In this document: positions 17,255 through 43,039 of the stretch, piece after piece | How the letters are laid out: every line of letters starts with the position of its first letter | Numbering within the stretch: position 1 is the stretch's first letter | Notes under the pieces: model-generated | Database searches by the model: none | The model's input: only the letters and a program-made list of their open reading frames with translations | What the model was told of the DNA's origin: nothing | From: Streptomyces sp. SUK 48 | GTDB lineage: Bacteria > Actinomycetota > Actinomycetes > Streptomycetales > Streptomycetaceae | Direction: 5' to 3' | Assembly (NCBI RefSeq): GCF_009650765.1 | Contig: NZ_CP045740.1 | Location: 1,302,001-1,366,000, forward strand | DNA: 64,000 nucleotides | Made by a program: the position numbers and the translations under genes

Positions 17255-17428
17255 ATGTCCGACAACGCCCTCGCCTCTCTCGCCCAGGAGATCCTGGACC
17301 TCGAGTCGGAGACCTTCGAGATCACCGACTACTCGGACGCCAGCGAGGTCATGCTCGGTTCGTCCACGAGCTGCTCCTCCACGAGCACCTGTTCCAGCAC
17401 CACGAGCACCACCTCCTGCACCGCCTGA
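17255..17428 (+). CDS. Thiopeptide/azole-type RiPP precursor peptide
   Basis: A 57-residue precursor. The leader (residues 1-35) is acidic, with AQEILDLESETFEITDYSDA resembling thiazolylpeptide-type leaders. After VMLG the last 22 residues (36-57) hold 10 Ser, 8 Thr, 3 Cys and a final Ala, so every residue but one is a substrate for azole formation or dehydration. GGAG lies 8 nt before ATG 17255, which decides this start over an in-frame ATG 63 nt upstream. It is on the + strand, convergent with the biosynthetic operon, and separated from it by a strong terminator. The mature peptide probably starts at or near residue 36; the cleavage site is inferred. Confidence 0.88.
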   Translation: MSDNALASLAQEILDLESETFEITDYSDASEVMLGSSTSCSSTSTCSSTTSTTSCTA

Positions 17429-17444
17429 CGTCCGGCGTCGGTGG

Positions 17445-17473
17445 AAAGGTCCCCGGCCCCGCCGGGGACCTTT
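17445..17473. terminator. Terminator between precursor and YcaO operon
   Basis: A perfect 13-bp stem, AAAGGTCCCCGGC with GCCGGGGACCTTT, around a 3-nt CCC loop. The A/T ends give a short U-run on either strand, so it can terminate both the precursor transcript and the convergent biosynthetic operon. Confidence 0.85.
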
Positions 17474-17489
17474 CGCGTTCCCGCCCCCG

Positions 17490-19454
17490 TCAGGGGAAGG
17501 GGTGCGGCACCAGCCGCAGGTCCGCCTCGCGCAGCGGTGCGGGCACCAGCCCCGCGCGGTACGGCGCGGTCCGCAGCCTCGGCAGGTGCGGCGCCCGCTG
17601 GCGCAGCCAGCCGAAGTCGATCGGCAGCAGCCCTGGGGCGAGCGTGGCGACCGTGCGCAGCCCCATGCGCCGCTGCTCGGGTGTGGTCTGGTCGACGGCG
17701 ATGACATCGCAGTCCGCGCCGGCCAGCAGATCGCGCAGCAGCGTGACGTCGTCGAGCAGATCGGCGGTGCGGGGCCGGCGCTCTTCCCAGTCGGCGAACA
17801 GCTCGGCGAGCGGGGCCACTCGGGGCGGGGCGAGGTAGCCGCGGGCGTGCTCGCGCATGGCGGGCAGCCCGAACAGGGCGGCATGGTCGGGCAGTCGTAC
17901 GACCTTGTCGAAATCCTCTGCCATGGCGGCGAGTTCGGCGGGTCGTTCGGCGACCTGGCCGGGCAGGTGCGGGATGTAGGTGAGGATCTCGGCGAGCGCC
18001 GACTCCACCGCCGTCTCGGGGTCGAAGGAGGCGCCGGCCGCGAACGCCAGGGTGCCGGGGCCGTCGTCACGGCGGACAGCGAGGCCGGTGACGACCGGTA
18101 CCGGCAGGTCCACCCGGTTGTCGAAGACGTGGACGTCGTAGCCCTGGAGTTCGGCGCGGGCCGCCATCGCCCGCACCCGGGCGCCGCCGACCGAGCCCAG
18201 GTCGATCTCCGGCAGCGGCAGGTCGCCGTACCAGCCGAGCAGGAAGGCGTCCCGCTCCAGGAGTTCGAGCAGGCCGAAGAAGACGGCCTCCTCCAGGCTG
18301 GCGCCGGTGGCGCAGCCGTTGGAACACTCGAAGACGAAGTTGTCCTCGCGGGTGCCCGCGCTGTAGTAGACGAGCCGGGCGGGCACCAGTACGGGCCGCT
18401 CGTCGCGCAGCGACCAGCCGGTGACCCAGGGAATCGGCCGGGCCGGGTCGAAGGGCTCGACCATGGGGTCCTCGGCGTAGGTGCGCGGCGCGTACAGCCC
18501 GCAGGTGCGGGGGTCCAGGGCGCGCTCGCCGAGTTCGTCCAAGGACGCGGTGACGACGGGGGCGCGGTGGCGGCGGTGGGTGCCGGCGTAGCGCTCCAGC
18601 CCCTCCAGGAAGGCCAGTTCGCGGCTGCGGGCGAAGGAGTTGGCCTGGCCGCTCCAGGTGACGTCGGTGAGTCCGGCGTAGCCCCGCATGAAGACGCTGC
18701 CCGCGACCGGCGCGGTGGTGGGCGAGGTGACGTCGGTCCAGGTGCCGCCGCCCAGCACCCCGCACACCGGGTTCGCGAGTCCCTTGACGGGCACCGGGAA
18801 GTCGCCGGGACGGCCCGAACGGTAGTCTTCGGGACCGGATTTGGGCCGGGAGGTCAGGGGGCCGGCGGTGCGCTCGGCCGCCGCCTCGGCCACGGCTTCG
18901 CGGGTCGCGGGGCGGCAGTGCGGGCACATCGGGTCGGGCAGCAGCGGGAAGGTGCGGACCTGGAGGGTCTCCTGGTCGAGTTCGGTGACTCGGGGCAACT
19001 CCGCGTCGGGGCCGGGAGGTTCGTGCCGGGCGGCGCCGGTGGTGATCAGGCGGTGCAGGGACCAGACGGCGTCCACCAGATGGTCGGGCAGGGCCGGCCA
19101 GCGACCGGCGGCCGTCGTCTCGGTGCCGGTCTCCAGCGCGTCCCGTTCGGTGCGGGTACGCAGCCGCTGGCGGCGCATCGCGAGGCAGGTGCCACACGCC
19201 CGGCCCGCGCCGCCGGTGCCGCCCCAGGGGCCCAGCAGCACGGCCTGGGCGGTGAGATGGACCTGGGCCGTGTGCGGGGGCACCGGCGCGGCCGGGACGG
19301 CCCGGTCGCCGAGCACGTTGGTGTCGCCGACGCGGGAGACGGCGGGGGCGGGCGCTCCCGCCGCGGCGGCGCGGGCCGCCAGGCGGTCCTGGAGGTCCGC
19401 GCGGGCGGCCTCCAGGGGTGCCGCCGCCGGGGCGGGGGCGGTGAGGGTGGTCAT
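17490..19454 (-). CDS. YcaO cyclodehydratase 1 (TOMM, SagD/docking type)
   Basis: 654 residues. It converts Cys/Ser/Thr of the precursor to azolines using ATP. The N-terminal ~200 residues carry CGTC (near 87) and CPHC (near 177), a likely zinc site joined to a docking domain. The YcaO domain follows, with ELAFLEGLERYAG, ECSNGCATG and ELLERDAFLLGWY, the Glu-rich ATP/Mg motifs. It ends PHPFP, the Pro-rich C-terminus typical of azole-forming YcaO proteins. The start overlaps the permease stop by 4 nt (ATGA). It is the last gene of the operon. A second YcaO is encoded at 28646-30577. Confidence 0.9.
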   Translation of the reverse strand: MTTLTAPAPAAAPLEAARADLQDRLAARAAAAGAPAPAVSRVGDTNVLGDRAVPAAPVPPHTAQVHLTAQAVLLGPWGGTGGAGRACGTCLAMRRQRLRTRTERDALETGTETTAAGRWPALPDHLVDAVWSLHRLITTGAARHEPPGPDAELPRVTELDQETLQVRTFPLLPDPMCPHCRPATREAVAEAAAERTAGPLTSRPKSGPEDYRSGRPGDFPVPVKGLANPVCGVLGGGTWTDVTSPTTAPVAGSVFMRGYAGLTDVTWSGQANSFARSRELAFLEGLERYAGTHRRHRAPVVTASLDELGERALDPRTCGLYAPRTYAEDPMVEPFDPARPIPWVTGWSLRDERPVLVPARLVYYSAGTREDNFVFECSNGCATGASLEEAVFFGLLELLERDAFLLGWYGDLPLPEIDLGSVGGARVRAMAARAELQGYDVHVFDNRVDLPVPVVTGLAVRRDDGPGTLAFAAGASFDPETAVESALAEILTYIPHLPGQVAERPAELAAMAEDFDKVVRLPDHAALFGLPAMREHARGYLAPPRVAPLAELFADWEERRPRTADLLDDVTLLRDLLAGADCDVIAVDQTTPEQRRMGLRTVATLAPGLLPIDFGWLRQRAPHLPRLRTAPYRAGLVPAPLREADLRLVPHPFP

Positions 19455-20203
19455 GTCCGGTTGCTCCAGCGGAAGATCCGGGTGGCGATCAGGCCGAAGA
19501 CCAGGGTGAAGACCACGAGTCCGGCGCAGTCCAGGCCGATGTCCCCGAGGTCGCCGCGGCCGCCCATGGCGTCGGTGAGGCCGTCGTTGAGGTAGTGCAG
19601 GGGCAGCACCTTGGCGACCGTGCGCAGCCAGCCCGGCATCAGGTCGTCGGGGAAGAACGAGCCGGACAGGAAGGCCATCGGCACCATCACCAGGTTGGCG
19701 ATGGCCGCCACGGACTCCGGGGTGTTGGCGAGGCTGCCGACGACCAGCCCCATGGCGAGGAACGCGGTGACACCGAGCACCAGCAGCGGAATGCCCGCCC
19801 ACCAGGGGCCGTTCAGCTTCAGCCCGAAGAACGGCAGCAGCGCCACGGCGGTGAACAGCACCGTCTGGGTGGCGGCGACGCCGAGGGCCAGGGTCCAGCG
19901 AGAGGCGATCAGCGAGCGCAGCGGGGTGGGTGTGCGCCAGATGAGGCGCAGCAGGTCGTCACGGCGCCACTGCATCAGGGCGAACCCGACGGAGAACACG
20001 CACGCGTTGCCGACGCCCCACGAAAGGACGCCGGGTGCCGTGTAGTTGATGGAGGCCATTCCGCCATTGACGTGCTGGCCCTGGAAGATGAGGCCGAACA
20101 GGACGAGGAAGGCGAGCGGGAAGGCGAAGGTGAAGAAGAGGGTCGTACGGTCGCGCACGCTCGCGACGTAACCGGCCCTGGTCAGTGCGGCGTAGGCGGT
20201 CAA
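19451..20203 (-). CDS. ABC-2 type transporter permease
   Basis: 250 residues with six predicted membrane segments (FFTFAFPLAFLVLFGLIF, then several through the C-terminal LVVFTLVFGLIAT). ABC-2 permeases export drugs or peptides with a separate ATPase. TTG 20203 overlaps the ATPase stop (TTGA) and has GGAG 8 nt upstream; the frame begins LTAYAALTRAGYVASVRDR, as usual for the family. It probably exports the mature peptide and may give self-protection. Confidence 0.88.
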   Translation of the reverse strand: MTAYAALTRAGYVASVRDRTTLFFTFAFPLAFLVLFGLIFQGQHVNGGMASINYTAPGVLSWGVGNACVFSVGFALMQWRRDDLLRLIWRTPTPLRSLIASRWTLALGVAATQTVLFTAVALLPFFGLKLNGPWWAGIPLLVLGVTAFLAMGLVVGSLANTPESVAAIANLVMVPMAFLSGSFFPDDLMPGWLRTVAKVLPLHYLNDGLTDAMGGRGDLGDIGLDCAGLVVFTLVFGLIATRIFRWSNRT

Positions 20204-21165
20204 CTGCGGTGCTCCGTTCCATGGCCGGTGAGGCTGAGGTAGGCGTCTTCGAGGGTGGCGGTGCGCACGGTGACCGACTCGATGTCGACCAGGTCGCCCA
20301 ATGCGGTCAGGACGTGGTTGACGGCCGAGGTCTCCAGGACCAGTTCGTCGCCCTCGACGGTGGCCCGGTCCACGCCGGGCAGCGCGAGCGCGGCCTCGGC
20401 CGTCAACTCGGCTGCGGGCAGCAGCAGTCGGGCGGGCGCGGCGAGCGAGCGGATGAGGCCCCGGGGCGTGTCGAGGGCGACGATGCGGCCACCGGCCACG
20501 ATCGCCACCCGGTCGCACAGCGCCTCGGCCTCGTCCAGGTGGTGGGTGGTGCACACGATGGTGCGGCCCTCGGAGCGCAACGACCGCAGCAGCGCCCACA
20601 GTTCGCGCCGCGCCTCGGGGTCGAGCGCGGCGGTGGGCTCGTCCAGGAAGATCAGCTCCGGTTCGTGCAGCAGCGCGGTGGCGATGGCGAGGCGCTGCCG
20701 CTGTCCGCCGGAGAGGTGGTCGACGCGCGCGTTCTCCTTCTCGGTGAGCCCGACCCGCTCCAGCGCGAGGCGCACGGAGCCCGGCTCCATGCCGTAGAGC
20801 GCGGCGACGGTGCGCAGGTGCTCGCCCGCGGTGAGCCGCGCGAAGAACGCGGACGCCTGGGTCTGGACGCCGATCCGGGCGAGCAGCGCGGTGTCCCGGG
20901 GCCAGGGGCTCTGCCCGAGGAGGCGGACGGTGCCGCCGTCCGCCTCGCGCATGCCCTCGACGATCTCCACCAGGGTGGTCTTGCCCGCGCCGTTGGGGCC
21001 GAGGATGCCGAAGAACTCACCGCGCCGCACGGTGAGGGAGACGCCGTCGAGCGCGGTGACCTCCCCGTACCGCTTGATCACGCCGTCGAGGACGACGACC
21101 GGCTCGGTGGCGCTGGCGGGGCCGGGTGCGGGTGCGGTCCCGGTCTGTGCGTGGGGTTCGTTCAT
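20200..21165 (-). CDS. ABC transporter ATPase (internal start or C-terminal domain)
   Basis: The ATPase part, 321 residues if started at ATG 21165. Walker A is GPNGAGKTT, the signature is HLSGGQRQRLAIA, Walker B is LIFLDEPTAALD. It is a DrrA-like multidrug type ATPase with the C-terminal extension. GGAAAGGCGAG precedes the ATG, a plausible ribosome site, so both the fusion and a free ATPase may be made. It pairs with the permease gene that overlaps its stop. Confidence 0.7.
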   Translation of the reverse strand: MNEPHAQTGTAPAPGPASATEPVVVLDGVIKRYGEVTALDGVSLTVRRGEFFGILGPNGAGKTTLVEIVEGMREADGGTVRLLGQSPWPRDTALLARIGVQTQASAFFARLTAGEHLRTVAALYGMEPGSVRLALERVGLTEKENARVDHLSGGQRQRLAIATALLHEPELIFLDEPTAALDPEARRELWALLRSLRSEGRTIVCTTHHLDEAEALCDRVAIVAGGRIVALDTPRGLIRSLAAPARLLLPAAELTAEAALALPGVDRATVEGDELVLETSAVNHVLTALGDLVDIESVTVRTATLEDAYLSLTGHGTEHRS

Positions 21166-22581
21166 CTCGCCTTTCCTTGCGGGGTCCAACGGGGGGCGGA
21201 AACCGTTGACTTGACTGGAATCCGCGGACGAGGAGGTGGGCGCGGCGGACCGCGCGGGGCCGGGCGTCCGGCCTTCGGCGGGGCTCGGGGCGCGTCCTTC
21301 GTTCCGGCTCGCGGTACGGCCCGTACGGCCTTCCGTACGGCTCTCGGTGCCGCCTTCCGTGCGGCGCCCGCGCAGCCGTCGGCCCCAGTCGCCGAGCCCC
21401 CACAGCAGCAGGACGGCGGCGAGCAGGGCGGTCGGCAGCCACCAGGCGAGCAGCGCCACGCGGTCCGGCAGCAGATGGCGCAGCACCAGCCCGGCGAGGG
21501 CGAGCAGCGCTGCCGTCTGTACGGCGGTGAGCAGGGCGAAGCCGCCGTACAGCAGGCGCAGCCGGAGCGGGTAGGCGCCCAGGCCCGGGCCGCGGCGCAG
21601 CAGGGCGCGGGCGGCGAGGGCGGTGAAGGCGCGGCTGCCCTCGGCGAGCCCGGAGACGCCGAGCGCGTGGCCGAGGGCGCGGTAGCCGTCGAGCGGAGCC
21701 AGCGGCAGCAGGTTGGCGAGGCCGGTGACGACGCCGAGCAGCAGCAGCGCGCCGAACGCGGGCCGGGCCTGGGCATCGGCCGGGAGCACCAGCCAGACGA
21801 CGTGGAAGGGCACCAGGAAGAGGAGGTTGGCGAGGACGCCGGCGCAGGCGGTGGCGACCTTGCGGGCCCGGCTGCCGAGGAACTGGACGTCGTCCACCTG
21901 GCAGTAGAGGTAGGTGGCGCCGAGGATCCAGCGCAGCCCGATCTCGCTGACGCGGCCGCCCCAGGTGCGCGCGAACAGGCCGTGGGCCAGCTCGTGCAGG
22001 GCGAGGCTGCACCACAGGACGCAGCCGACGGCGAACAGCAGCACGGGCTGTTCGGCGGTGTGCGCCGTCTGCCGCCACAGGGTTGCGGCACTGGCGGCGA
22101 CGGCGGCGAGCACACCGACGGCGAGCGCGGTGAGCACGGCCAGCAGGGCGGGCCTGCGGTCCAGGGCGGTGAGCCGGTGCAGCCGGTCCATGAGGGCGGG
22201 CGCGTCGGCGACCATCCGGGTGTGCCCCGAGAGGAAGCCGCTCGGACCCTCGGCGGGAGTGGGGACCGGAGCGGGCGCGGTGGGCGCGGGGCCGCCGTCG
22301 AGGAGACCGCGGGCGCCCAGCAGCCGCAGCAGCTGCCCCCACTGGGCCTCGCCGAGCCGGGTGCCGAACTCGTGCGAGTAGGCCCGCCCGATCTCCTCCA
22401 GGGACCGGGTGCCGTCGAGGCGGGTGATGAGGAAGTGCTCCTTGGCGCCGACCTCCAGGCGCCGTCCGGTGCGCGGGTCCTTCAGCAGATGGATGCGGGC
22501 CGGGCCGCGCAGCAGGCTGGGGCCGAGGACGAGGTCGGGGCACACGCGCGGCCGGGCGGCCAGGAAGGCGTCGGTCGTCAT
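20200..22581 (-). CDS. PqqD-like / M50 protease fused to ABC transporter ATPase
   Basis: One uninterrupted frame of 793 residues. Residues 15-95 look like a PqqD/RRE peptide-binding fold (LEVGAKEHFLITRLDGTRSL). A membrane metalloprotease of the M50 type follows: HELAH near residue 196 and NLLPLAPLDGYR near 290, in several membrane helices. A Arg/Thr/Glu linker leads at about residue 473 into an ABC ATPase. There is no stop between protease and ATPase, although an ATG with AAGGAAAGGCGAG ahead of it (21165) could start the ATPase alone. Leader binding, cleavage and export would be joined in one protein. It overlaps the SpaB_C gene stop by 4 nt. Confidence 0.8.
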   Translation of the reverse strand: MTTDAFLAARPRVCPDLVLGPSLLRGPARIHLLKDPRTGRRLEVGAKEHFLITRLDGTRSLEEIGRAYSHEFGTRLGEAQWGQLLRLLGARGLLDGGPAPTAPAPVPTPAEGPSGFLSGHTRMVADAPALMDRLHRLTALDRRPALLAVLTALAVGVLAAVAASAATLWRQTAHTAEQPVLLFAVGCVLWCSLALHELAHGLFARTWGGRVSEIGLRWILGATYLYCQVDDVQFLGSRARKVATACAGVLANLLFLVPFHVVWLVLPADAQARPAFGALLLLGVVTGLANLLPLAPLDGYRALGHALGVSGLAEGSRAFTALAARALLRRGPGLGAYPLRLRLLYGGFALLTAVQTAALLALAGLVLRHLLPDRVALLAWWLPTALLAAVLLLWGLGDWGRRLRGRRTEGGTESRTEGRTGRTASRNEGRAPSPAEGRTPGPARSAAPTSSSADSSQVNGFRPPLDPARKGEMNEPHAQTGTAPAPGPASATEPVVVLDGVIKRYGEVTALDGVSLTVRRGEFFGILGPNGAGKTTLVEIVEGMREADGGTVRLLGQSPWPRDTALLARIGVQTQASAFFARLTAGEHLRTVAALYGMEPGSVRLALERVGLTEKENARVDHLSGGQRQRLAIATALLHEPELIFLDEPTAALDPEARRELWALLRSLRSEGRTIVCTTHHLDEAEALCDRVAIVAGGRIVALDTPRGLIRSLAAPARLLLPAAELTAEAALALPGVDRATVEGDELVLETSAVNHVLTALGDLVDIESVTVRTATLEDAYLSLTGHGTEHRS

Positions 22582-23663
22582 CTGGTGTCCTCCGGGGCGC
22601 CGTCGCGCAGGGCGCGGGCGAGGACGTAGGAGAGGAACGCCTCGTCGCGGACGGTGATACCCAGCCGGTTGTTGGTCATGTGCGTATACGGCGACAGGAG
22701 CATCGGCAGGGCGTGCGCCGGGTCGGTGGCGTGGATGTCGCGGGTGCCGTCGAAGGAGCGGAAGACCAGGTCGCCCTGGGTGGCCAACTGTTCTGCTTTT
22801 TGCCGGAGTTCGGCGCAGTGTCCGGCCCAGCCGCGCAGGAAGGCGGGGAGCCGGTCCGCTTCGCCGCGGGCCACCGTCTCGCGGATGTGCCGGAAGCGTT
22901 CGGGCAGTCGGTCGCCCATGGCGGCGTACGCGCGCTCGTAGCCCTTGTCGGTGGTGTAGTTGGTGGTGCTGAACGCGTTGTTCCAGAAGCCGTGGTAGCG
23001 GTCGAGGAAGGTCAGCAGGCCCTCGTCGGCGGCGAGGAAGGTGCCGGAGACGACCATCATCAGCTGGGCGGACAGTCCGAGGAGCACCGTGCGCAGATGG
23101 AGGTTCATGGTACGGGTGGCCTCGATGACGAGGTCGCTGGAGTGCTGGAAGTGCCATTCGGCGAGCGCGATGCCGGCGGGGCCGCCGTACTTGCCGTACT
23201 CGGGCTCGTAGGGGCGGTCCTCGAAGCTGTTGTTGGGGCGCAGCCTCATCCGCCCGTCCGGGCCGAGGAAGCGGGCGCGCTCCTCCTCGCTGTACTCCAG
23301 GGTGAACAGGGTCTCGTACAGCTCGGCGAAGAAGCCCGCCTTGACCTCGTAGAGGGCGGGGCGTTCGCGCAGGAACGCGTCGAGGGCGGCATGGGTGCGC
23401 TCCCGGACGGTGCCGGCGTCGGCGGCGCGGGCCGGTTTCAGGCGCAGCCGCAGATGGGGGCCCTCCAGCCAGTAGTTGATGAAGAAGTACCCGGTGATCA
23501 GGCCATCCTCGGTGAGCGTGTCCACCAGGGGCTTGACGCATTGAAGGAGCAGCGGGCGGGGGCTGGCCGCGTAGAAGACGTGCACCGCGAGCCAGGTGCC
23601 GGGCGTGTCCTCGGTGGCGGTGTCCACGGCGGGAGCGTCCACGGCGGGGGTGGGTGCGGTCAT
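22578..23663 (-). CDS. SpaB_C-type thiopeptide biosynthesis protein
   Basis: A 361-residue protein of the lantibiotic dehydratase C-terminal family (thiopeptide-type bacteriocin biosynthesis). It shows WLAVHVFYAASPRPLLLQCV at the start, then ITGYFFINYWLEGPHLRLRL and PYEPEYGKYGG. In thiopeptide systems one such protein eliminates glutamate to make dehydroamino acids and a second forms the pyridine ring by [4+2] cycloaddition. Only this one is present, so it most likely does elimination; dual activity cannot be excluded. It overlaps its neighbours on both sides by 4 nt. Confidence 0.88.
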   Translation of the reverse strand: MTAPTPAVDAPAVDTATEDTPGTWLAVHVFYAASPRPLLLQCVKPLVDTLTEDGLITGYFFINYWLEGPHLRLRLKPARAADAGTVRERTHAALDAFLRERPALYEVKAGFFAELYETLFTLEYSEEERARFLGPDGRMRLRPNNSFEDRPYEPEYGKYGGPAGIALAEWHFQHSSDLVIEATRTMNLHLRTVLLGLSAQLMMVVSGTFLAADEGLLTFLDRYHGFWNNAFSTTNYTTDKGYERAYAAMGDRLPERFRHIRETVARGEADRLPAFLRGWAGHCAELRQKAEQLATQGDLVFRSFDGTRDIHATDPAHALPMLLSPYTHMTNNRLGITVRDEAFLSYVLARALRDGAPEDTR

Positions 23664-26600
23664 CGGGCTTCGTCCTTCTTCGGCGGGGCGGCCGGGGCGG
23701 GCAGCATCTCTACGGCGAGTTCGGCGACATGGCGGCCGCGGGGCGAGGTGACGTGCAGCTCGTCCTCGCCGGGGAGCATCTCCTCGAAGACGGTCCGGGC
23801 ACGTCTGCCGGCGAGCAGTCCTTCGAGTCCGGTGAGGGAGATCGGGCTGGCGAAGTCGACGTACTGAGGCTTGGCGCTGCCGAACCAGCCGCCGGCCTCG
23901 TCGCCGTCGCGCACCTCGTGCACGGTGGCGAACGCCCGCTCGGGCAGGCCGTGTCCGACGCGCCAGCGGTGCCAGCCGAGGTACCAGTCGGCGTCGGTGA
24001 CGCCCGGGGCGCGCAGCGGGAGGCGCCCGTCGGCGACGGTCCAGGAGCGGCGCTGCACGACGAGCGAGTGGTGGCGGACGCGGGGGCGCCGGGTGACTCC
24101 GTCGTGCCCGGGGCCCGCGGGCACACCGCGCCAGACGTCCGGCTTGGGGCGGCTGGTCGGGGAGAACAGCAGCAGGGTGCGCGGGATCTCGGGCAGCACC
24201 ATGGGCACCAGGTAGCCGAGGTAGAGGGGGACGACCTCGCGGCCCAGCCGGCGCGAGCGCAGCAGCAGCCGGTCGGTGCTCTCGTCGTGCACGGCGTACA
24301 GGTCGTCCAGGTGGAGCCGGGCTTCCTCGGGCGCCGAGCTGGTCTCGCCGGGGCAGACGATCTCGTGGTCGGTCAGCCGGCCGTGCAGATTCAGGTTGGT
24401 GGTCGCGGAACCCGCGGTGACCTCCGTGAACACGGCTCCGGGCGGCAGCAGTTCCCGCAGTTCGGCGCGGATCGCGGTGGTCAGGCCGGGGCCGTCGGGG
24501 CCGTCGAAGCAGTGGGTGAAGCGGGTGAAGGGGAAGCAGAGGCCGCCGAAGGAGTCGTTGAGGACGACCAGGGGGTCGCCGTCGCGGCGGGCCAGCTGGA
24601 GGAAGTGGCTGTACGGCTGGAACGCCGGGGCGGCGCCGCCGAGGGCCTCGGCGACCTCCTCGGCGAAGGCGTCTTCCAGGACGAACTCATCCGCATCCGA
24701 CGGGAGTTCTGCCCACCGTTCGCGCATCCGGGCGGTGAAGGTGGCGCGGGCCCGGTCCAGCGCGGTCAGTTCGGGCAGGCCGAGCCAGTTCTCCTCCGGG
24801 GCGTGGCTCCCGTCCGGCAGGAAGTCGTCCTTGGCGGAGGTGAACTGGAGGTACTGCCGGAAGATGTCCTCGTGGAAGTCGTGCACCAGGCGCAGCAGAT
24901 CGTCGCAGCGTCCGCCGCGGCCGAAGCGGGCGAGGAAGAAGCCCTTGAGGGTGAGGCGCTGGGGCAGTGCCACGTCGAAGGCGGGCAGCAGCCGCCCGAG
25001 CGAACGCAAGGGGGCCTCGGCGAGCCGCGTCCATTCGGCGAGGCGGGCGGTGGTGGTGCCGGCGGAGACGTCCTCGTAGACGAGGGTCTGCGGGAGGGAC
25101 GGGTTTTCGGCACCCAACTCTTCCTGGAGTGCCAGGAGTTCGGTCCTGAGCACGCCGAGCAGGGTACGGCGGGTGGGGACGTCCGCCGACGGGAAGCGGG
25201 CCAGGAGATCGGCGGGGCCGTCCAGGCGGCCGGCGAGCGCCTCGGCCCACGGCCGGTCCAGGGCGCGCAGCGACCGCTGGAACGCGCGCACCGGGTCGCC
25301 GCTGTGGACGCCGGTGGCGAGGCTCGGGAGCTGGAGCATGCCGAGGTCGCGCAGGGCGGCGAGATAGTGCTCGGCCTCCTCCTCGCCGGACCCGGAGGTG
25401 GTGGCCAGCCAGCGCGTCAACTCGCCGTACCTGAGCGGCCCTTCGTGATCGCGCAGCAGGGTCAGCATGCCGTCGAGGGTGCCCTGGCGGCGCAGGAAGA
25501 ACAGCCGGTCCTGGGCGGCGTCGAAGCTGACGGCGGCACTGTCGTCGCCCGCCGTGACGGCCCGCTGGACATAGCGGATACGGTCCTCGTCCAGCTTCCA
25601 GCCGGAGGCCAGGGCGACCGGGAGGTCGGCGCGGCGCGCGGGATCGGCGGCGACGAGTTCGGCGAGGCGGGCGAGCGCGACGACGTTCAGCCGGGGGTGG
25701 CCCGTCCAGCCGTCGCCGACCCGGGTGGCCGCCGTACCGTCCCCCTCGGCCCTTTCGGCCTCCTCCTCCTCGAACCGGCCGACGGCGACGCCCGTGAGCG
25801 TGCTGAACGGGCTGGTCTTACAGGCGGTGCGGTAGACGTACGAGAGCAGCGAGCGCTCCATCTTGCGGGCGCGCTTGCCCGGTACCGGCGCCGGGTCGGC
25901 CGCGAAGGCGTCCAGCCGCTCCTCCAGCGTGGGCGAGGCCAGCAGCAGGCCCCGGCGCAGCCGGTCGTCCAGGGCCAGCTCGCGCAGTGCGGCGCGGGTG
26001 CGGCCGAACCCGGCGGCGAGCACGGACTCACCCTCGGCCCGCAGCTCCTCCCAGCGGACCCGGGCCTCCAGCCACTCGGCGAGATCGGCCCCGGCGTCCC
26101 CGCCGAGGCTCTCGGCGAGCGCGCGGGCGGCCGAAAGGTCCCCGGGCAGGCGGTTGTTGAACACCTGGCGGCGCAGGGCGAGCAGCCGGCGGCGCGACAC
26201 CGGGTCGTCGGCGGCGCCGACCGCCTCGGAGAGCGGATCGCTGAGCCGGGCGCCGAGCGCGGCGAGCCGGTCCTGCTCGGCGGCGGTCCGCGCGGCCCAG
26301 TCGGCGGCCTCGGGAGCACGCAGGGCGAGGACGGTGTCCACCGGGAGGCCGGACACGCGCAGCATGAAGCGGTGGCGCAGGGCGGCGGGCCCGGCGGAGA
26401 GGTCGTCCACCGAGGCGGGCGCAGTGGCCGAGGTGGCCGAGGTGGCCGAGGTGGCCGAGGTGGCCGAGGTGGCCGAGGTGGCCGAGGCAAGCCTGATGGG
26501 CGCGGCGGATTCGGCGGGCGCGGCGGACTCGGCGGGCGCGGTGGCCCCGGCAAGCCCGGCGGGCACATCAGGGCCAGCGGGCAAGGTGGCCGCCGCAAGC

Positions 26601-26956: not shown

Positions 26957-28554
26957 GGGGCCACGATGTCGAAGCGGTAACCGGCCGGGCGGGGAGCCTC
27001 GTTGCCGATCATCATCACGAGCAGCGGGATCTCGCCCCGTTCGGCGAGGCCGAGTTCCTCCGCGAAGGAGACGCAGTCGAAGCCGAGCGCGACACCGCAG
27101 CCCATGCCCGCGGCCGAGGAGGCGGTGTACACGGCCTGCGCGGTGGCGCCGATGACGGCGTTGACCAGCCTGAGGCCCCGGTCGCCGACCGTGTCGAGGA
27201 CGGCGTGGGTGCGGGCCGCGGGCACCAGGACGGCGGCGGCCTGCTCCAGGTTGTAGTTGGCGAGGAAGTAGTTCTCCTGGAGGAAGCCCCCGAAGTCGCC
27301 CGGCTTCATCAGAACCAACTCGCCGCTCTCCCAGTCGTGTTCGTAGACGCCGGGCGCGATGCCCCGGACGTGGTTGACGAAGACGTACTGCCGGGTGAGC
27401 GGCGCCGCGCCGGGCGTCTCCGCGTCGGTGTCCAGGGTGCCGGCGGCGACGGCCGCGGCCAGTGCGGCGGCGAGCCGGGCCGGGTCCAGCGGGTCGGCGG
27501 CGCTGAACCGGCCGAAGCTGCTGCGGCGTTCGCGCAGCGCCCGGCGTACGGTCGTGTCGAGTGCGACCGGCGCGGGCAGCGCGACCCGCTCACCGGGACC
27601 GGGCGGGGTGGCCGACGCGGAGTCCAGCACACCGGGCGCGGGACGGTCGGCGGCGCCTTCCAGGGTGGCCGCGTGGATCGCGCGCACGGTCGGGAAGGTC
27701 AGCACCCGGCGGGAGCGTTCGTCGGGGACACGGCGGACCCGGGCACCCGGGGTGGCCGGGGCGTCCACCGTCCCCGCGTCGTCCTCGTCCGCCGTCGCCC
27801 ACTTCAGCGGCACCACCGCGAACACCCCGTCCTCCTCGGGGTCGAGCCCGAGCACCCGGCCGAGGCGGGGCTCGTCGAACCACAGCGCGGCACCGATGTG
27901 CAGCCCGTGCGCGCGGGCCCACATCCGCCAGGTCTGGAGGAGGGCGCCGATGTCCATCGTGACGACGTGGTAGGAGAAGCTGTTGTACTTGAAGGCGTTC
28001 TGCCAGAACGTCACCCCGAGCACCAGGAACTGGTCCGTCCCCGCCGCCTCTTGGAGCTCGCCGACGGCGCCCCGCACCTCGCCGGTGACATCGCCGGCCA
28101 GCGTCCTGACGAAGGCGTTGCGCGGGGTGTCGTAGTAGTGGACGCCGGGGGCGAGGGGGCCGCTCGCGCCGCTGATCCAGTGGATGCCGACGGGGTAGAG
28201 GCCACCGCCGGAGGAGGTGCCGCGCGACCAGTTGGCGTGGGTGTGGAACGGCAGCGAGCCGAGGTCGCTGTTGGCCTGGACGGCGAGGCGGCGACCGGTC
28301 AGCCCGTAGGAGTCGCGGAGCATCGCGCCGAGCAGCGGCAGGGTGAACGCGCCGGTGCCGCGGGGCCCGGACAGGCCCCGGCCGAGGGTGGCGTCGTCCG
28401 CGCAGCCGCCGTCGGGCAGCGGCAGGACGGGTGCGCCGGGGAAGAACTTGCCCTTGCGGGGGCGGTCGGCCCAGTCGGGCACGAAGTCGGCGGGTTCCAT
28501 GGGGATTCTGCCCCGCCGCATCACCGCGGTCGCGTACTCATGGGCGTATCCCAT
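26953..28554 (-). CDS. SagB/ThcOx-type azoline dehydrogenase
   Basis: A 533-residue FMN nitroreductase-fold protein that oxidises azolines to azoles. It contains two related nitroreductase-like halves: residues ~70-250 (SSGGGLYPVGIHW, then YHVVTMDIGALLQ) and ~330-530 (ALRERRSSFGRFS, TRQYVFVNHVRGIAPGVYEH, VYTASSAAGMGCGVALGFD). SGGGLYP is the SagB signature. ATG 28554 follows AAAGGGAAG and the next gene's ATG overlaps its stop. The 91-nt gap upstream to the YcaO stop is the widest inside the operon. Confidence 0.9.
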   Translation of the reverse strand: MGYAHEYATAVMRRGRIPMEPADFVPDWADRPRKGKFFPGAPVLPLPDGGCADDATLGRGLSGPRGTGAFTLPLLGAMLRDSYGLTGRRLAVQANSDLGSLPFHTHANWSRGTSSGGGLYPVGIHWISGASGPLAPGVHYYDTPRNAFVRTLAGDVTGEVRGAVGELQEAAGTDQFLVLGVTFWQNAFKYNSFSYHVVTMDIGALLQTWRMWARAHGLHIGAALWFDEPRLGRVLGLDPEEDGVFAVVPLKWATADEDDAGTVDAPATPGARVRRVPDERSRRVLTFPTVRAIHAATLEGAADRPAPGVLDSASATPPGPGERVALPAPVALDTTVRRALRERRSSFGRFSAADPLDPARLAAALAAAVAAGTLDTDAETPGAAPLTRQYVFVNHVRGIAPGVYEHDWESGELVLMKPGDFGGFLQENYFLANYNLEQAAAVLVPAARTHAVLDTVGDRGLRLVNAVIGATAQAVYTASSAAGMGCGVALGFDCVSFAEELGLAERGEIPLLVMMIGNEAPRPAGYRFDIVAP

Positions 28555-28645
28555 GGTCACTTCCCTTTCTGCTGTCTGTGGTCGGGGTCGGCCGCCCGCG
28601 CCGCGCACAGGGGCACAGGGGCAAGGGGGCGGTGGGCGGGGCAGG

Positions 28646-30577
28646 TCAAGGGAAGGGATGCGGTGCCGGATTGAGGTCGGCGGGCGTCAAGTCGTCGTCC
28701 CGCAGGCCCGCTTCGCGCAGGGCGGTGCGCGTCCGGGGCAGCAGCGGGGCGCGTTGCCGGCTGGTGCCGAAGTCGATCGGCAGCAGACCGGGCACCAGGA
28801 CCTTGACAGTGTGCAGGCCCAACTCCCGTTGTTCCGGGGAGGTCTGGTCGATCACGACGACGTCGAAGCCGTGCGCGGTGACGGCGCTGACACACGCCTG
28901 GACGTCGGTGCGCAGCTCGGCGGCCGGCGTCAGGGCGCCCTGCCCGGTGGCGAGGGAGGCGAGCGGCACCCGTTCGGCGTCGTCGCGGCCGCGCAGCAGG
29001 AAGTCGGTGTACCGGCCCATCTCGGGCAGCCCGTACAACAGGGGGTGGTCGTGCAGCACCTGGACCGCGCCGAAGTCGCCCGCCATGCGGCGCAGCCGGG
29101 ATTCGTCGCGGGCGGTGCGGCGGCGCAGGTTGACCGCGTCGGTGGCGATCTCGCAGAGCCCGCCTTCGAGCGCGGACTCGGGGTCGAGGGAGGCGCCCGC
29201 GCCGAAGCAGAGCAGTCCGGGGCCACCGTCCACGCGTTCGGCGACGGCGGTCACCACCGGCACCGGGAAGGTGACGCGGGTGTCGAAGAACCGGGCCCGG
29301 TAGCCGTACATCGCCAGCCGGTCGACCATGGCGCGGGTCGCGGTCCGGGTGCTGCTCGCCGGGTCGATCTCGGGCAGCCGGAGCCGGCCGAACCAGGCCA
29401 GCAGGAAGGCGTCGCGTTCGACGGTCTCCATCAGCCCGTGGTAGACGGCCTCGGCCAGACTGCCGCCGGAGGCACAGCCGTTGGAGCTCTCCTGCACGAA
29501 ACGCCGCCGGATGCCGCCGGGCGCGTGGTAGTAGGCGACGACCTCGGGCACGAGGACCGGCCGGTCGTCGCGCAGCGACCAGCCCCACACCCAGTCCACC
29601 GGCCGGTCCGGCGCGAAGCGCGGCACCTCGGGGGCGGCGGCGTGGAAGGCGTCGGAGTACAGGCCGGTGACGCGCGGGTCGACGGCGAGGTCCCCGAGGT
29701 CGTCGAGGGCCGCGCGGACCACCGTCCGCTTGGCGCGGGCCCGCATACCGGCGAACCGCTCCAGGCCCTCCAGCACCCCGACGCGGACGCTGGTGCCGTA
29801 GGAGCCGGTGTGGCCGCCCCAGTAGCACTCCCGCAGGTAGTCGCCCGAGCGGGTGGTGAAGGCGCCGATCACCGAGGAGGTCGACGCGGACGCCAGGTCG
29901 GGGGCGAAGGAGGGGCCGAGGGCGCCGGTGACCGGGTTCACGAACGCCTCCGGCACCAGGTCGTAGGCGGCGAGCGGTCGGGCGCGGAAGTCGTCCGCGT
30001 CGTGTTTGGCGCCGGGGTCCAGGGTGATCCGGGCGCCCTCGGCGGTGTCGTCCGGGCGGGCCGCGCAGGACGGGCACTCGCCGTCGGGCACCAGCGCGAC
30101 CCGGCTGACCCGCAGGGTCTCCAGATCCAGCAGCCACACCCAGGGGTGCCGGCCACCTCGGTCCCGGCGGGCCGCCGCCGCGACCAGCGTGGCGAGGGCG
30201 TCCACCGTGAAGCCGGCCAGCCAGGGCGGGGTGCCGGTGGCCCGCGGTCCGTCGCCGCGCTCCAGCGCGTCCCGCAGATATCCGGCCCGCACCGCCTGCC
30301 AGCGGCGCGCGAGGCACCGGGGGCAGCCGGGGGCGCCCTCGTCCGGTACGGGACCGACCAGGGCGTGGTGCCCGTACAGGCCCACCGGTATCGCGTCCCG
30401 CGTTAACTCGTCCGCACCGAGAGCGAGTTCGTCGCGGACACCGAGCGGGGTCACCGCCGCGGGCGGGGTGCCGGGGCGCCCGGCGAGTGCGGTGGTGAGC
30501 GCGGCGCACACCGCGTCCCACGGCCCGGCGGCCGCGGACGGGGCGGGGTGCGGCACGGTCACGGTCTCAGCGGGCAC
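28646..30577 (-). CDS. YcaO cyclodehydratase 2 (TOMM, SagD/docking type)
   Basis: 643 residues with the same layout as the YcaO at 17490: N-terminal region with CPRC (near 85) and CPSC (near 168), then a YcaO domain (GVLEGLERFAGMR, ESSNGCASGGS, ETVERDAFLLAWFG) ending PHPFP. The ATP/Mg Glu residues are present, so it looks active. GTG 30577 overlaps the previous gene by 11 nt. With its partner ThiF-like protein directly upstream it is the more obvious cyclodehydratase; the two copies may have split Cys and Ser/Thr substrates. Confidence 0.9.
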   Translation of the reverse strand: MPAETVTVPHPAPSAAAGPWDAVCAALTTALAGRPGTPPAAVTPLGVRDELALGADELTRDAIPVGLYGHHALVGPVPDEGAPGCPRCLARRWQAVRAGYLRDALERGDGPRATGTPPWLAGFTVDALATLVAAAARRDRGGRHPWVWLLDLETLRVSRVALVPDGECPSCAARPDDTAEGARITLDPGAKHDADDFRARPLAAYDLVPEAFVNPVTGALGPSFAPDLASASTSSVIGAFTTRSGDYLRECYWGGHTGSYGTSVRVGVLEGLERFAGMRARAKRTVVRAALDDLGDLAVDPRVTGLYSDAFHAAAPEVPRFAPDRPVDWVWGWSLRDDRPVLVPEVVAYYHAPGGIRRRFVQESSNGCASGGSLAEAVYHGLMETVERDAFLLAWFGRLRLPEIDPASSTRTATRAMVDRLAMYGYRARFFDTRVTFPVPVVTAVAERVDGGPGLLCFGAGASLDPESALEGGLCEIATDAVNLRRRTARDESRLRRMAGDFGAVQVLHDHPLLYGLPEMGRYTDFLLRGRDDAERVPLASLATGQGALTPAAELRTDVQACVSAVTAHGFDVVVIDQTSPEQRELGLHTVKVLVPGLLPIDFGTSRQRAPLLPRTRTALREAGLRDDDLTPADLNPAPHPFP

Positions 30578-32855
30578 GGCGCGTCCCGCGGGTCAGGACG
30601 ACACGCGAGGCGAACACGGCGCCCTCGGCGAGGTCGGGCGCGGTGACCGGCACCGCGAAGGCGTCCCGCCCGGCCGCGGCGAGGCCGTCGAGGACGGCGG
30701 CCCAGGTGGTCTCCGCGACAGGGGCCGCTACGACGCCGTCGGGGACGAGGGTCGCCGCGTCCAGGTCGGCCCACAGTGGGTCGCCTGTGTCGGACTCGTC
30801 CCCGGCGCTTCGCAGTTGCTCGGCGCCGAGGAGATCGCGCAGCGCCTCCAGGACGGCCTCGCGGTGCCGGAGCCCGCTGCCGACGGCCCAACGCGCCTGG
30901 CCGCTCCGCGCGTCGGTGAACCGGGCGAGCACGACCGGCAGCAACGGCTGGCCCAGATCCAGGACTTCGGCGGTGACACCGAGGTTCTCCGCCGAGCGCA
31001 GCAGGAACCGCAGCTCCGGGTCACCGGCGAGGGTCGCGGGGTCCACGGTGCGCACCGGGTTCACCCGGCGGACGGCGGCGCCGAGCGCGTCCTGGGCGAG
31101 GGCGGTGCGCAGGGCGCGGGCGAGCGCGGCCCGGGGGCTGCCCGCGGCGCCGGTGCCGGCGGAGGTCCGCTCGAACAGGCCCGCGTCGTTCCAGCCGCCG
31201 AACGTGCGCACGGCGCCCGCGGGCACCAGCACGGTCCGGCCGTCGAGCAGCGAGGTGGCCTCGCCGAAGTGGGCGATCCGGTCGGCGGGCACGTCCAGGC
31301 CGCTGGAGACGGCGAGTTCGGCGGGGGCGAGGCGGGTCCACTTGCCCGCGGCGGCCTCCAGCGCGGCGGCCTTCAGCACCTGGGGCGGGACGACGTGTTC
31401 GACGTACACCTCGGCGGCGCGGAACAGCGCGGTCAGGCGGGCTCCGGCGACATGATGCACATCGGCGGCGGACACCTCGCGGGTGCGTCCGGGCGCGAGT
31501 CCCAGGCGTACGGTGCCGATCTTGAGCGGGGTCTGCTCCCACGCGTCGTCGGCGTACGCGGTGAAGACCCCGGCCGCCTCCCGGACCAGGACGTCGCGCC
31601 GCTCAAGGGCGGCGAGTGCGGTGCGGGCGGCGTCCTCGTCGGCGGCGCCGTCGGCGGGCGCGGTGGCGGACTCGTCCTCGGGACGGGGGGTGCGCAGGGC
31701 GTCGCCACTCGCCGCGGCCTCTGCGCCCGCCGCGGCCTCCGCGCCCGGAGCGGCGGAGCAGTAGGGACATCGGGGGTGCGGCAGCAGCGGCTCCGTCAGC
31801 ACATCGAGGGAGTCGAGGTGCTGGACGACGAGCTGTCCGCGGGTCTCGGCGGGCAGTGCCCCGGTGACCAGGCGGAACACCTCGAAGGCGAGCAGATTGC
31901 CGAGCATCCCGGCGAGCGGGCCGCCGATGAGGGGCGCGGGCGCGCCGAGCGGTGCGGCGGGTCCGACGGACGCCCACAGGTCGGCGCTGTCGGCCGCGTC
32001 GCTGCCCGCGCCGAGCCGCAGCGCGGCGCAGCACCAGCAGCCGGTGCGCCCGGCGGTCATCTCGGGGCCGATGACGGCGCGGTCGCCGAAGGTCCACGCG
32101 CCGAGCAGCCGGCGCCCGGCCGGGACGCCCTCGGTGAGCAGCCGGAGCAGCTGCCGGGGCCCGGCGGCGGGGGTCACCAGGACCGTGTCCCAGCCCTCCA
32201 GTTCGGCCCAGCCGTACGTGCCGTCGACGGCCGCCTCGAGACGGGCGAGCCGGGGGGCGCAGCCCGCCTCGGCAAGGGCGGCGGCCTCGGCCTCGATCTC
32301 CGCGCTGCCCTCCACCCCGTGCCGCTCGGCCCGCAACTCGCTGTAGGGCGAGGCCGGTTCGGTTATGGCCACGGCGGCGCTGCCGTTGCGCAGCAGGCCG
32401 AGCGCGGCCCAGCGGGCCAGGGCGTCGTCACCGAGGACGGCGACCGGGGTGTCACGGAAGCGCGTGAAGCGTCCGGTCGCGTCGTCGGCGTAGTGGTCGA
32501 GATAGTCGAGCTGATGCGCGAAACGCTCGCCGACCTGCGGCGCGAGCGCGTCGGCCGGGGGCCTCGGGCCGGCGTCCCGGGCGAAGCCACGCGCGTAGAG
32601 CGCGCGCACGAGTTGGACCACCATGTCGCGCTGCTTGTCCCCCAGCCCGGCGCACAGCTCCTCGACCCGCCGCTCGCCGTCGAAGTGCGGCACGATCAGC
32701 GTGGCGAAGCGGTACGCGTTGCGGGTACGGACGTTGAACCCGCCGTGGGCGTTGTGGAAGAGCACTCCGTCCGGGGTGCGGGTGTAGAGCACGTCCCGGC
32801 GGATGCGGGGCCGCGACTGCGCGATCTCCTCGAGGGAGGCGGGGGCGTGGGGCAT
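30567..32855 (-). CDS. Ocin-ThiF-like leader-binding cyclodehydratase partner
   Basis: 762 residues. In thiopeptide and other azole systems this partner (TOMM leader-binding, ThiF/E1-like) holds the precursor leader and presents it to YcaO. The N-terminal 90 residues (VLYTRTPDGVLFHNAHGGFN ... RVEELCAGLG) form a peptide-binding winged helix. An E1-like domain follows with VAVLGDDALARWAALGLLRN. The zinc tetracysteine is GCWCC and CPYC. The second half (after ~430) resembles the nitroreductase-like or docking extension of the family. ATG 32855 lies 22 nt after the SARP stop. Confidence 0.88.
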   Translation of the reverse strand: MPHAPASLEEIAQSRPRIRRDVLYTRTPDGVLFHNAHGGFNVRTRNAYRFATLIVPHFDGERRVEELCAGLGDKQRDMVVQLVRALYARGFARDAGPRPPADALAPQVGERFAHQLDYLDHYADDATGRFTRFRDTPVAVLGDDALARWAALGLLRNGSAAVAITEPASPYSELRAERHGVEGSAEIEAEAAALAEAGCAPRLARLEAAVDGTYGWAELEGWDTVLVTPAAGPRQLLRLLTEGVPAGRRLLGAWTFGDRAVIGPEMTAGRTGCWCCAALRLGAGSDAADSADLWASVGPAAPLGAPAPLIGGPLAGMLGNLLAFEVFRLVTGALPAETRGQLVVQHLDSLDVLTEPLLPHPRCPYCSAAPGAEAAAGAEAAASGDALRTPRPEDESATAPADGAADEDAARTALAALERRDVLVREAAGVFTAYADDAWEQTPLKIGTVRLGLAPGRTREVSAADVHHVAGARLTALFRAAEVYVEHVVPPQVLKAAALEAAAGKWTRLAPAELAVSSGLDVPADRIAHFGEATSLLDGRTVLVPAGAVRTFGGWNDAGLFERTSAGTGAAGSPRAALARALRTALAQDALGAAVRRVNPVRTVDPATLAGDPELRFLLRSAENLGVTAEVLDLGQPLLPVVLARFTDARSGQARWAVGSGLRHREAVLEALRDLLGAEQLRSAGDESDTGDPLWADLDAATLVPDGVVAAPVAETTWAAVLDGLAAAGRDAFAVPVTAPDLAEGAVFASRVVLTRGTRRAR

Positions 32856-32877
32856 GGGCGGGGAGACCTTTCGAAGC

Positions 32878-34002
32878 TCACGGGGAGGGTCGGCCTGCGG
32901 CCGGGGGAGGCAGGTCCGTCGGGTCGTGCGGGACGGCGTCGGCGCACGGGAGGCTGGCACCGGCCGCCTGGACGAAGAGCCGCAGCAGGTCGTGGACGCG
33001 ATAGCGGCCGGAGGGGTCCTCCTGGAGCAGCCCGGCGTCCACGAGCGAGCTGAGCACCAGGGCTCCGGGGGCGCTGGGCGAGCCCCGGCCGAGCCCCGGC
33101 GGCGGCTGCCCGGGACCGGCGCTCTGGACCGGCAGCGGCAGCGGCCGGCCACCCGGCGGGAGGGCCCCGGCCGGCGCGCCGGGGGCGATCGCACCGCTCT
33201 GCCCGTCCGGTGACTCGCCGCGCAGTACGGCGAGTTGGAGTTCCCGCAGGACCGGTCCCGGCTCCACCCCGAGTTCCTCGGTGAGGTGGGCGTGGATCCT
33301 GCGGTACTCGGCGAGTGCCTCGGCGCGCCGGCCGGAACGGTAGAACGCCTCGACCAGCAGCGCGGACAGCCCCTCGTGCCCGGGGTGGGCGCGCACGGCC
33401 TCGCGGGCCTCGGGGATCAGCTCGCGGTGCCGGCCGAGGCGCAGCTCGCCGTCGAACACCCGCTCCACCGCGAGGAGTCGCTCCTCGGCCAGGCGGGGCA
33501 CGAGGTCTCGGTGGATCTCGTCGGAGTGCACATTCGTCAGCAGGGGCGCGCTCCACAGCGCGAGCGCGGCGCGGGCCAGGCGCAGCGCGGACTCCGGGTC
33601 GTCGGTGGCGTACGAGCGGGCGAGCACCTCGCGGAAGCGCAGCAGATCGAGGGTGCCGGCGTCGGCGCGCAGTCGGTAGCCGCCGGGTACGGCCTCGATG
33701 GCGTGATCGGCGACGCCGTACTTGGCGAAGAGCCGGCGCAGCCGCAGGACGCAGGTGTGCAGCGCCGATCTGCCGCCCGCGGGCGGCCGGTTGCCCCAGA
33801 CCACCCGCTGGAGCAGCTCCGAGCCGACGACCGCGCCGGGGTGGAGCAGCAGGGCCGCGAGGAGCGAGGCGGGGCGGGAGGGCTGGAGTACGACCGTTTC
33901 CCGGCCGTCGGTGATGGCGAGCAGGCCGAGCACGAGGAACCGCGGCTGATGGGTCCCGGGTGCGGGGAAAGCGCTGTCCGGCGCGGAGGTGCCTGTCTTC
34001 AC
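32878..34002 (-). CDS. SARP-family activator with NB-ARC remnant
   Basis: 374 residues. An OmpR-like winged helix (residues 20-110) is followed by a bacterial transcriptional activator domain (120-260), giving a SARP, an activator of antibiotic clusters. A Gly/Pro-rich stretch follows, then LVDAGLLQEDPSGRYRVHDL (near 308-328), which is the winged-helix end of an AfsR-type NB-ARC ATPase. The ATPase core itself is missing. GTG start with AAAGG 7 nt upstream. First gene of the operon, so it probably activates it, the precursor, or both. Confidence 0.9.
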   Translation of the reverse strand: MKTGTSAPDSAFPAPGTHQPRFLVLGLLAITDGRETVVLQPSRPASLLAALLLHPGAVVGSELLQRVVWGNRPPAGGRSALHTCVLRLRRLFAKYGVADHAIEAVPGGYRLRADAGTLDLLRFREVLARSYATDDPESALRLARAALALWSAPLLTNVHSDEIHRDLVPRLAEERLLAVERVFDGELRLGRHRELIPEAREAVRAHPGHEGLSALLVEAFYRSGRRAEALAEYRRIHAHLTEELGVEPGPVLRELQLAVLRGESPDGQSGAIAPGAPAGALPPGGRPLPLPVQSAGPGQPPPGLGRGSPSAPGALVLSSLVDAGLLQEDPSGRYRVHDLLRLFVQAAGASLPCADAVPHDPTDLPPPAAGRPSP

Positions 34003-40858: not shown

Positions 40859-40890
40859 GGCCCCCTCTCGCTCCGTGCAGTTACGTGGAC

Positions 40891-42006
40891 TCAACTCATC
40901 CGCTCGGCGAGCCGCTGCGCCTCCTCGATCAGGGTCTCGACGATCCGGGACTCCGGGACGGTCCGCACGACCTCCCCCTTGACGAAGATCTGCCCCTTTC
41001 CGTTGCCCGAGGCAACTCCCAGATCGGCCTCACGGGCCTCTCCGGGGCCGTTGACCACACAGCCCATCACCGCCACCCGCAGCGGCACTTCGAGGCCGTC
41101 GAGCCCGGCGGTGACCTCGTCCGCGAGCCGGTAGACGTCCACCTGGGCGCGACCGCAGGAGGGACACGAGACGATCTCCAGGCGGCGCCGGCGCAGGCCC
41201 AGGGACTCCAGGATCTGGATGCCGACCTTGACCTCCTCCACCGGCGGCGCGGACAGCGACACGCGGATGGTGTCGCCGATGCCGCTCGACAGCAGCGCCC
41301 CGAACGCGACGGCCGACTTGATGGTGCCCTGGAACGCGGGGCCGGCCTCCGTGACGCCCAGGTGCAGCGGATAGTCGCACCGCTCGGCCAGCTGGCGGTA
41401 CGCCTCGATCATCACGACCGGGTCGTTGTGCTTGACCGAGATCTTGATGTCCCGGAAGTCGTGCTCCTCGAAGAGCGACGCCTCCCACAGCGCCGACTCG
41501 ACCAGCGCCTCCGGGGTGGCCCTGCCGTACCTCCGCAGCAGCCGCCGGTCCAGGGACCCGGCGTTGACCCCGATCCGGACCGGTGTGCCGCGGTCCTTCG
41601 CGGCGCGCGCGATCTGCGCGATCTGGTCGTCGAACTTCTTGATGTTGCCCGGGTTGACCCGGACCGCCGCGCAGCCCGCCTCGATGGCCGCGAAGACGTA
41701 CTTGGGCTGGAAGTGGATGTCCGCGATCACCGGGATCTGCGACTTGCGCGCGATGACCGCAAGCGCGTCCGCGTCGTCCTGCGTGGGGCAGGCGACGCGG
41801 ACGATCTGGCAGCCGGACGCGGTGAGTTCGGCGATCTGCTGGAGGGTGGCGCCGATGTCCGACGTACGGGTCGTCGTCATCGACTGCACCGAGACCGGGG
41901 CCCCGCCCCCGACCGCCACCGGCCCGACATGGATCTCCCGCGACCGCCGCCGCGGGGCCGCCTGCCGGGCCGGTACCTCGGGAACGCCCAAGGGTACGGC
42001 GGTCAT
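40891..42006 (-). CDS. ispG: 4-hydroxy-3-methylbut-2-enyl-diphosphate synthase
   Basis: 371 residues. A [4Fe-4S] MEP-pathway enzyme (formerly GcpE). [19 protein letters not shown] opens the TIM barrel; the cluster Cys are in SCPSCGR and [14 protein letters not shown] with [10 protein letters not shown]. It is 32 nt ahead of dxs and 4 nt after hpnH, so in the same operon. Same comment as dxs on a likely second copy. Confidence 0.93.
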
Positions 42007-42010
42007 CGCG

Positions 42011-43033: not shown

Positions 43034-43039
43034 CTGGGC

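Follow-up and report, generated by a model that had tools for sequence, protein, structure and literature searches.

A conserved Streptomyces gene cluster that probably makes a linear, goadsporin-like peptide from a nearly all-Ser/Thr/Cys core

Goadsporin belongs to the ribosomally synthesized and post-translationally modified peptides (RiPPs) and is made with a YcaO protein, a dehydrogenase and a split LanB, which together yield azoles and dehydroalanine (Dha) (PMC5303826, PMC4603692; these and all other papers are cited here from excerpts), and the spongiicolazolicins are named as related to it (PMC10676384). In this study, we describe a RiPP gene cluster at positions 17255-34002 of a 64,000-nucleotide stretch of the Streptomyces sp. 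SUK 48 genome (NZ_CP045740.1, positions 1,302,001 to 1,366,000; the whole stretch is called the window). The cluster shares with the goadsporin family the split LanB, the YcaO and the dehydrogenase, with no pyridine synthase found, and on the strength of its gene content, conserved motifs, synteny and conservation it probably makes a linear, goadsporin-like RiPP with azoles and dehydroamino acids. The two systems also differ, as goadsporin has a single fused cyclodehydratase, the GNAT acetyltransferase GodH and the ABC transporter GodB with a peptidase domain, whereas the window has an F protein with two YcaOs and an M50 protease with an ABC-2 permease, and no GNAT match was obtained among the nine operon proteins scanned.

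Other families resemble the cluster in part. Azole RiPPs in general (thiazole/oxazole-modified microcins and linear azole-containing peptides, LAPs) have an azoline-type YcaO with a leader-binding domain or partner and a Ser/Thr/Cys-rich precursor, all of which are present here. The coryneazolisins of Corynebacterium, so far predicted only, likewise combine two D proteins, LanB-like dehydratases and a Ser/Thr/Cys-rich core with no [4+2] enzyme (PMC4603692); one of their D proteins is discrete and one fused, whereas both YcaOs of the window carry a TIGR03882 domain. Thiopeptides such as thiomuracin and lactazole have a YcaO, a dehydrogenase, LanB, SpaB_C and often an F protein (PMC4603692 and general knowledge of the class), but a search of the SUK 48 genome with PF14028 found no dedicated [4+2] pyridine synthase of the kind that stands beside their elimination protein. 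An additional fused cyclodehydratase is reported in some thiopeptide-type clusters (PMC4603692), so the presence of two YcaOs does not by itself make a cluster novel. Dehydrazoles such as carnazolamide join azoles and Dha on one peptide, as is proposed here, but use a DUF4135 dehydratase, and the carnazolamide leader is nitrile-hydratase-like (PMC10676384); the dehydratase of the window is not of the DUF4135 type. The lanthipeptide trait of a LanC-type cyclase was sought in the precursor and the nine proteins of the operon only, and had no match there.

The precursor gene (17255-17428, plus strand) encodes 57 amino acids, is conserved in relatives and exceeds the cut-offs of two NCBIfam models, NF033400 (45.8 bits, cut-off 30) and TIGR03892 (42.5 bits, cut-off 25), both named 'thiazolylpeptide-type bacteriocin', a family defined by sequence; a Pfam scan of the same peptide at E 0.001 matched no family. 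Its core, GSSTSCSSTSTCSSTTSTTSCTA, has Ser, Thr or Cys at 21 of 23 residues, and the uninterrupted run of 21 such residues is the longest in the six frames of the window, the runner-up being nine. As a guess at the leader/core border, the putative leader would be MSDNALASLAQEILDLESETFEITDYSDASEVML and the core (G)SSTSCSSTSTCSSTTSTTSCTA; the calculated monoisotopic mass of the unmodified core is 2076.777 for the 22-mer and 2133.798 for the 23-mer. Precursors were collected as 90 genes from 87 sources, and with two from one locus (L081) excluded from the position count as unlike the rest, 88 genes with 12 distinct cores were aligned gap-free from the C-terminus. Thirteen of the 23 core positions (5, 9, 10, 11, 13, 14, 15, 17-21 and 23) are invariant, and 12 of these are Ser, Thr or Cys. 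Cys, Ser and Thr are the only residues that replace one another at positions 3, 4, 6, 12, 16 and 22, and Ser and Thr alternate at position 8. Two genes have Ala at position 7, and Gly, Ala or Ser occupies positions 1 and 2. The exact core of the window was found in 25 genes, encoded by 19 different DNA sequences. Such a constant core suggests a conserved target. The pattern of exchange is consistent with the exchangeable positions being azole sites, at which thiazole, oxazole and methyloxazole would be interchangeable, and with many of the fixed positions being dehydrated.

In the core codons (17357-17425 in the window), the same positions of identical cores use AGC as well as TCN serine codons, a switch that requires a double change or passage via another residue; a nucleotide-level comparison of nonsynonymous with synonymous differences (pN/pS) among precursors was discarded because pN is inflated by these switches. 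A wider search gave 142 more or less distant precursor homologues, of which 120 were listed and 28 read. The string SSTTSTTSC stands near the C-terminus in 13 of the 28, and their N-terminal halves differ; among the 120 matches listed, most named homologues are called thiazolylpeptide-type bacteriocin and many carry PF19409.

Genes were called by a codon-position scan with translations, on a genome that is a single contig of 8,341,671 bases. The operon runs on the minus strand from 34002 to 17490 and comprises nine genes in the order SARP, F protein, YcaO1, SagB, LanB, SpaB_C, M50-ABC, permease and YcaO2; the precursor gene is convergent with the YcaO2 gene. A preliminary description had claimed a complete cluster that combines azole formation with tRNA-type dehydration and has gene overlaps of 4-11 nt for most of the operon. 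NCBIfam and Pfam scans recovered the whole claimed gene set, and with the starts chosen, neighbouring genes overlap at six of the eight junctions (4 nt at five of them, 11 nt at the sixth) and are separated by 22 and 91 nt at the remaining two. Two points needed correction, in that the precursor lies on the strand opposite the operon and the M50 protease and the ABC ATPase form one frame. The chemical reading is also supported, as the F protein, YcaOs, SagB, LanB and SpaB_C are present and conserved, and would act as their families predict.

The dehydratase family matches in the cluster are Lant_dehydr_N and Lant_dehydr_C, on two separate proteins. The LanB N-terminal (glutamylation) protein (23660-26956, minus strand) passes PF04738 and matched no NCBIfam model; in the PDB it matches 6ec7 (7.2e-35), which we take to be TbtB and whose entry names a lantibiotic dehydratase domain protein, and 9jhq (1.7e-11), a 'Goadsporin biosynthetic protein'. 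The SpaB_C protein (22578-23663, minus strand) passes TIGR03891 and PF14028 and is most likely responsible for glutamate elimination. Were it instead bifunctional or mainly a [4+2] cyclase, the cluster would make a true thiopeptide closed by a pyridine macrocycle. This candidate role was demoted to a rival after a motif test, a count in the genome itself and a control model, and we regard it as unlikely. PF14028 has two matches in the genome, the SpaB_C of the cluster and one inside a 1050-codon open frame elsewhere, and no separate pyridine synthase was found by this search, which weak synthases could escape; the same model did give 29-31 bits for the partner synthases in L104 and L105. The cluster SpaB_C is the sole PF14028 match in 5 of 24 relative genomes.

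The motifs PE[YF]xKYGG and HMTNNR are kept in all 38 loci with a long SpaB_C frame, and in a weak HMMER alignment their counterparts in the elimination domain of MibB are YDPEYERYGG and HMTCNR. These elimination-type motifs are absent from two control synthases, so called because NF045556 is the model that they match best (137-141 bits, under its cut-off of 325) and because each has a LazF-type neighbour; in each of these two clusters the LazF-type protein carries HMLFNR and ETDRYGG, and its pyridine-synthase-like partner lacks both motifs. TIGR03891 matches SpaB_C but not the control synthases, and NF045556 covers SpaB_C only at profile positions 1-276 of 354, whereas the control synthases reach 347-348. 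On the other side, the fold of SpaB_C is closer to pyridine synthases, which weighs against an elimination role, but a control elimination-type model likewise ranks TbtD/PbtD first. In a MAFFT alignment (A2), the synthase His and Arg share the columns of H328 and R333; single columns were thus non-discriminating, and the full HMxxNR and YGG motifs were therefore relied on. Some elimination-type controls deviate from these, namely L108 with HTTNNR, L106, L107 and L111 with HHYYGS replacing the YGG stretch, and L114 with KFGG and HLMNNR, and control L109 was termed elimination-type from its motif and TIGR03891. Because no separate pyridine synthase was found and the elimination-type motifs of SpaB_C are kept, a linear, goadsporin-like product is favoured over a thiopeptide. 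Further clusters with LanB, YcaO and ABC genes and a lone stand-alone elimination-type SpaB_C were seen in L109, L110 and L112. In one relative (L070, genome G171), the SpaB_C gene matches in two overlapping pieces with an apparent frameshift, due perhaps to decay or to an error in the sequence.

Azole formation in the linear product would rest on four proteins. The ocin-ThiF-like F protein (30567-32855, minus strand) is the least secure assignment among the operon parts, as it exceeds the cut-off of TIGR03882 (58.1 bits, cut-off 36.9), but its residues 12-362 match TIGR03693 at 52.4 bits, far under the cut-off of 561.9, and a Pfam scan gave no match; it is the probable leader-binding partner of both YcaOs. 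YcaO1 (28646-30577, minus strand) and YcaO2 (17490-19454, minus strand; with a leader-binding-type domain) are paralogues assigned as azoline-forming cyclodehydratases from family matches and motifs, and both end in PHPFP. They are the only two YcaO matches in the whole genome. SagB (26953-28554, minus strand) passes TIGR03605 and is the predicted dehydrogenase that turns azolines into azoles.

It is also conceivable, if quite improbable, that the second YcaO makes another backbone change (a thioamide or an amidine) or is a structural partner, and forms no azolines. One F protein with two YcaOs is unusual, and thioamidating and bottromycin YcaO systems exist. However, both proteins pass the SagD-type model TIGR03604 (cut-off 219), YcaO2 at 339 bits and YcaO1 at 302.8, and both pass TIGR03882. 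The catalytic motif SNGxAxG...ExxERD is matched as a strict pattern in 37 of 38 YcaO1 and 30 of 38 YcaO2; the nine that fail still have the motif with one Gly replaced by Ala, so that it is kept in all 38 loci for each protein, and the PHPFP end is found in 75 of 76 copies. A scan of the precursor and the nine proteins of the operon gave no TfuA match. A tree of 34 sequences groups all YcaO1 in one clade (support 99/98) and all YcaO2 in another (97/99), and the two are sisters with support 94/99, slightly below the tool's starred level; the outgroup consisted of nine further YcaOs encoded in these genomes rather than the whole superfamily, with a long-branch warning among them. That the clades are sisters suggests an old duplication within the cluster, and both copies are retained in the complete relatives examined. 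From this apparent duplication and joint retention one may guess that the YcaOs divide labour by residue type or core half. A more far-reaching scenario, which we hold improbable, is that two specialised YcaOs divide the core, SpaB_C both eliminates and closes a ring, and the constancy of the core reflects a conserved target or signalling role, not an arms-race antibiotic.

For the linear, goadsporin-like product, we infer the chemistry, step order, cleavage site and activity as follows. The F protein would hold the leader, YcaO1 and YcaO2 would turn chosen core Cys, Ser and Thr residues into azolines, and SagB would oxidise these to azoles. LanB would then glutamylate remaining Ser and Thr with Glu-tRNA as donor, and the lone SpaB_C would eliminate glutamate to give Dha or dehydrobutyrine. 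The M50 protease, which this lineage has fused to the ABC ATPase, would cut off the leader during export through the ABC pair, and the SARP would turn the operon on.

The M50 metalloprotease (HELAH) is fused in frame to the ABC ATPase in one open frame (20200-22581, minus strand), with a possible internal ATPase start at 21165, and is followed by an ABC-2 type permease (19451-20203, minus strand; from family scans). In a survey of 47 loci, no M50 frame was called in five, three of them cut contigs, and the HExxH motif is present in all 42 loci with a called frame; protease and ATPase form a single frame in 15 of the 42 relatives and two frames in 27. The fusion suggests that cleavage is coupled to export. 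M50 proteases work in the epipeptide and pearlin pathways (PMC10885120).

The SARP-type activator (32878-34002, minus strand) passes BTAD and Trans_reg_C. Its frame has 374 amino acids, whereas in 33 of 36 relatives it spans 587-872 codons; two close relatives with 392 and 407 codons and one relative with 451 are also short. One long SARP, when read, has a P-loop ATPase-like middle, and the window SARP looks as if this middle had been deleted and a C-terminal stub left. Between the precursor and YcaO2 genes lies a strong hairpin (17443-17476; folding of 17429-17490 gave a minimum free energy of -36.4 kcal/mol, z -3.03), a possible terminator common to both convergent genes; a scan for T-run terminators and sigma-70 promoters had no match near the precursor and none at the hairpin.

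The precursor is carried by 47 of 295 same-genus genomes sampled, the window genome included, and by 5 of 396 genomes of a phylum sample. One of these five, a weak match in a 1.5-Mb genome (L117), was rejected as chance, as the 3.1 kb examined contain neither a Ser/Thr/Cys run nor any further gene of the cluster. A YcaO2 scan over one-genome-per-species contigs gave 47 loci, a set that overlaps the genus precursor set, so that pooled counts are not independent; the precursor is convergent on YcaO2 in 46 of them, and none was seen in L046. Related loci extend to Kitasatospora, Actinacidiphila, Micromonospora and Catellatospora. Among 41 genus loci examined (40 of the 46 other genus matches and the window), 35 have YcaO1, YcaO2, SpaB_C, LanB, SagB and the F protein all as long frames. 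Some of the remainder are incomplete by sampling, as L088 and L103 are short contigs, L079 ends within YcaO2, and the L081 region is off target, its cluster lying in L113. L070 has no YcaO2 and F-protein frames and L090 no SagB and F-protein frames, though tblastn still detects pieces. Permease frames were counted in 29 loci, an undercount, as the listing began at frames of 300 codons. Since gene order is conserved across many genomes, chance can be ruled out. That the locus joins two modules with no relation to each other, or is a cluster in decay, is highly improbable: the broken or missing frames of L070 and L090 have no counterpart in the window, where the frames are intact in one operon with 4-nt overlaps, and nearly all relatives examined share gene set and order.

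Variants of the arrangement were also seen. In L079, L080, L082, L101 and L102 the precursor lies upstream of the SARP on the same strand. L113 (G036) is a divergent sister cluster with similar enzymes and two tandem precursors with different cores, and L072 (G155) has two tandem precursors whose cores differ solely at position 6, Cys to Thr. An M20 amidohydrolase gene (15765-17075, minus strand), divergent from the precursor, often adjoins the cluster in relatives and possibly belongs to it; it is not essential, because it was not found in the regions examined of L023, L027 and L028 (Micromonospora), L046, and the five loci just named. Neighbouring genes at 37575-45747 (minus strand) encode a class-III aminotransferase, a DXP synthase and a squalene-hopene cyclase (43684-45747), a hopanoid cluster.

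Among the antiSMASH predictions published for Streptomyces sp. SUK 48 is a 'Thiopeptide-lap-terpene' region (region 11; hopene 92%), for which the excerpt gives no product (PMC7873656); the cluster in the window is very probably this region and thus already in print as a prediction. Bat-associated Streptomyces are reported with thiopeptide-LAP hybrids in 35 genomes and LAP-thiopeptide in 15 (PMC11092124). In the open-access literature, which leaves subscription papers mostly uncovered, no product or description of a two-YcaO family was found among the matches listed, and two core strings were absent from the open-access paper texts searched. A 'thiopeptide-like' product of S. rimosus was dismissed as a relative, as the excerpt refers to tyrobetaines (PMC13098539). 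The preliminary description had left open if the cluster is a known one; its precursor family has a name in NCBIfam, and a characterised product was not found among the papers listed.

The kind of cluster is itself known; what is new is the strong conservation of the core and the spread of this precursor type, which occurs in about one sixth of the sampled genomes of the genus. The order and selectivity of such modifications are called not yet known (PMC10676384), and the cluster is a natural system in which to ask how one LanB and a pair of YcaOs divide a substrate in which almost every residue is modifiable in several ways.

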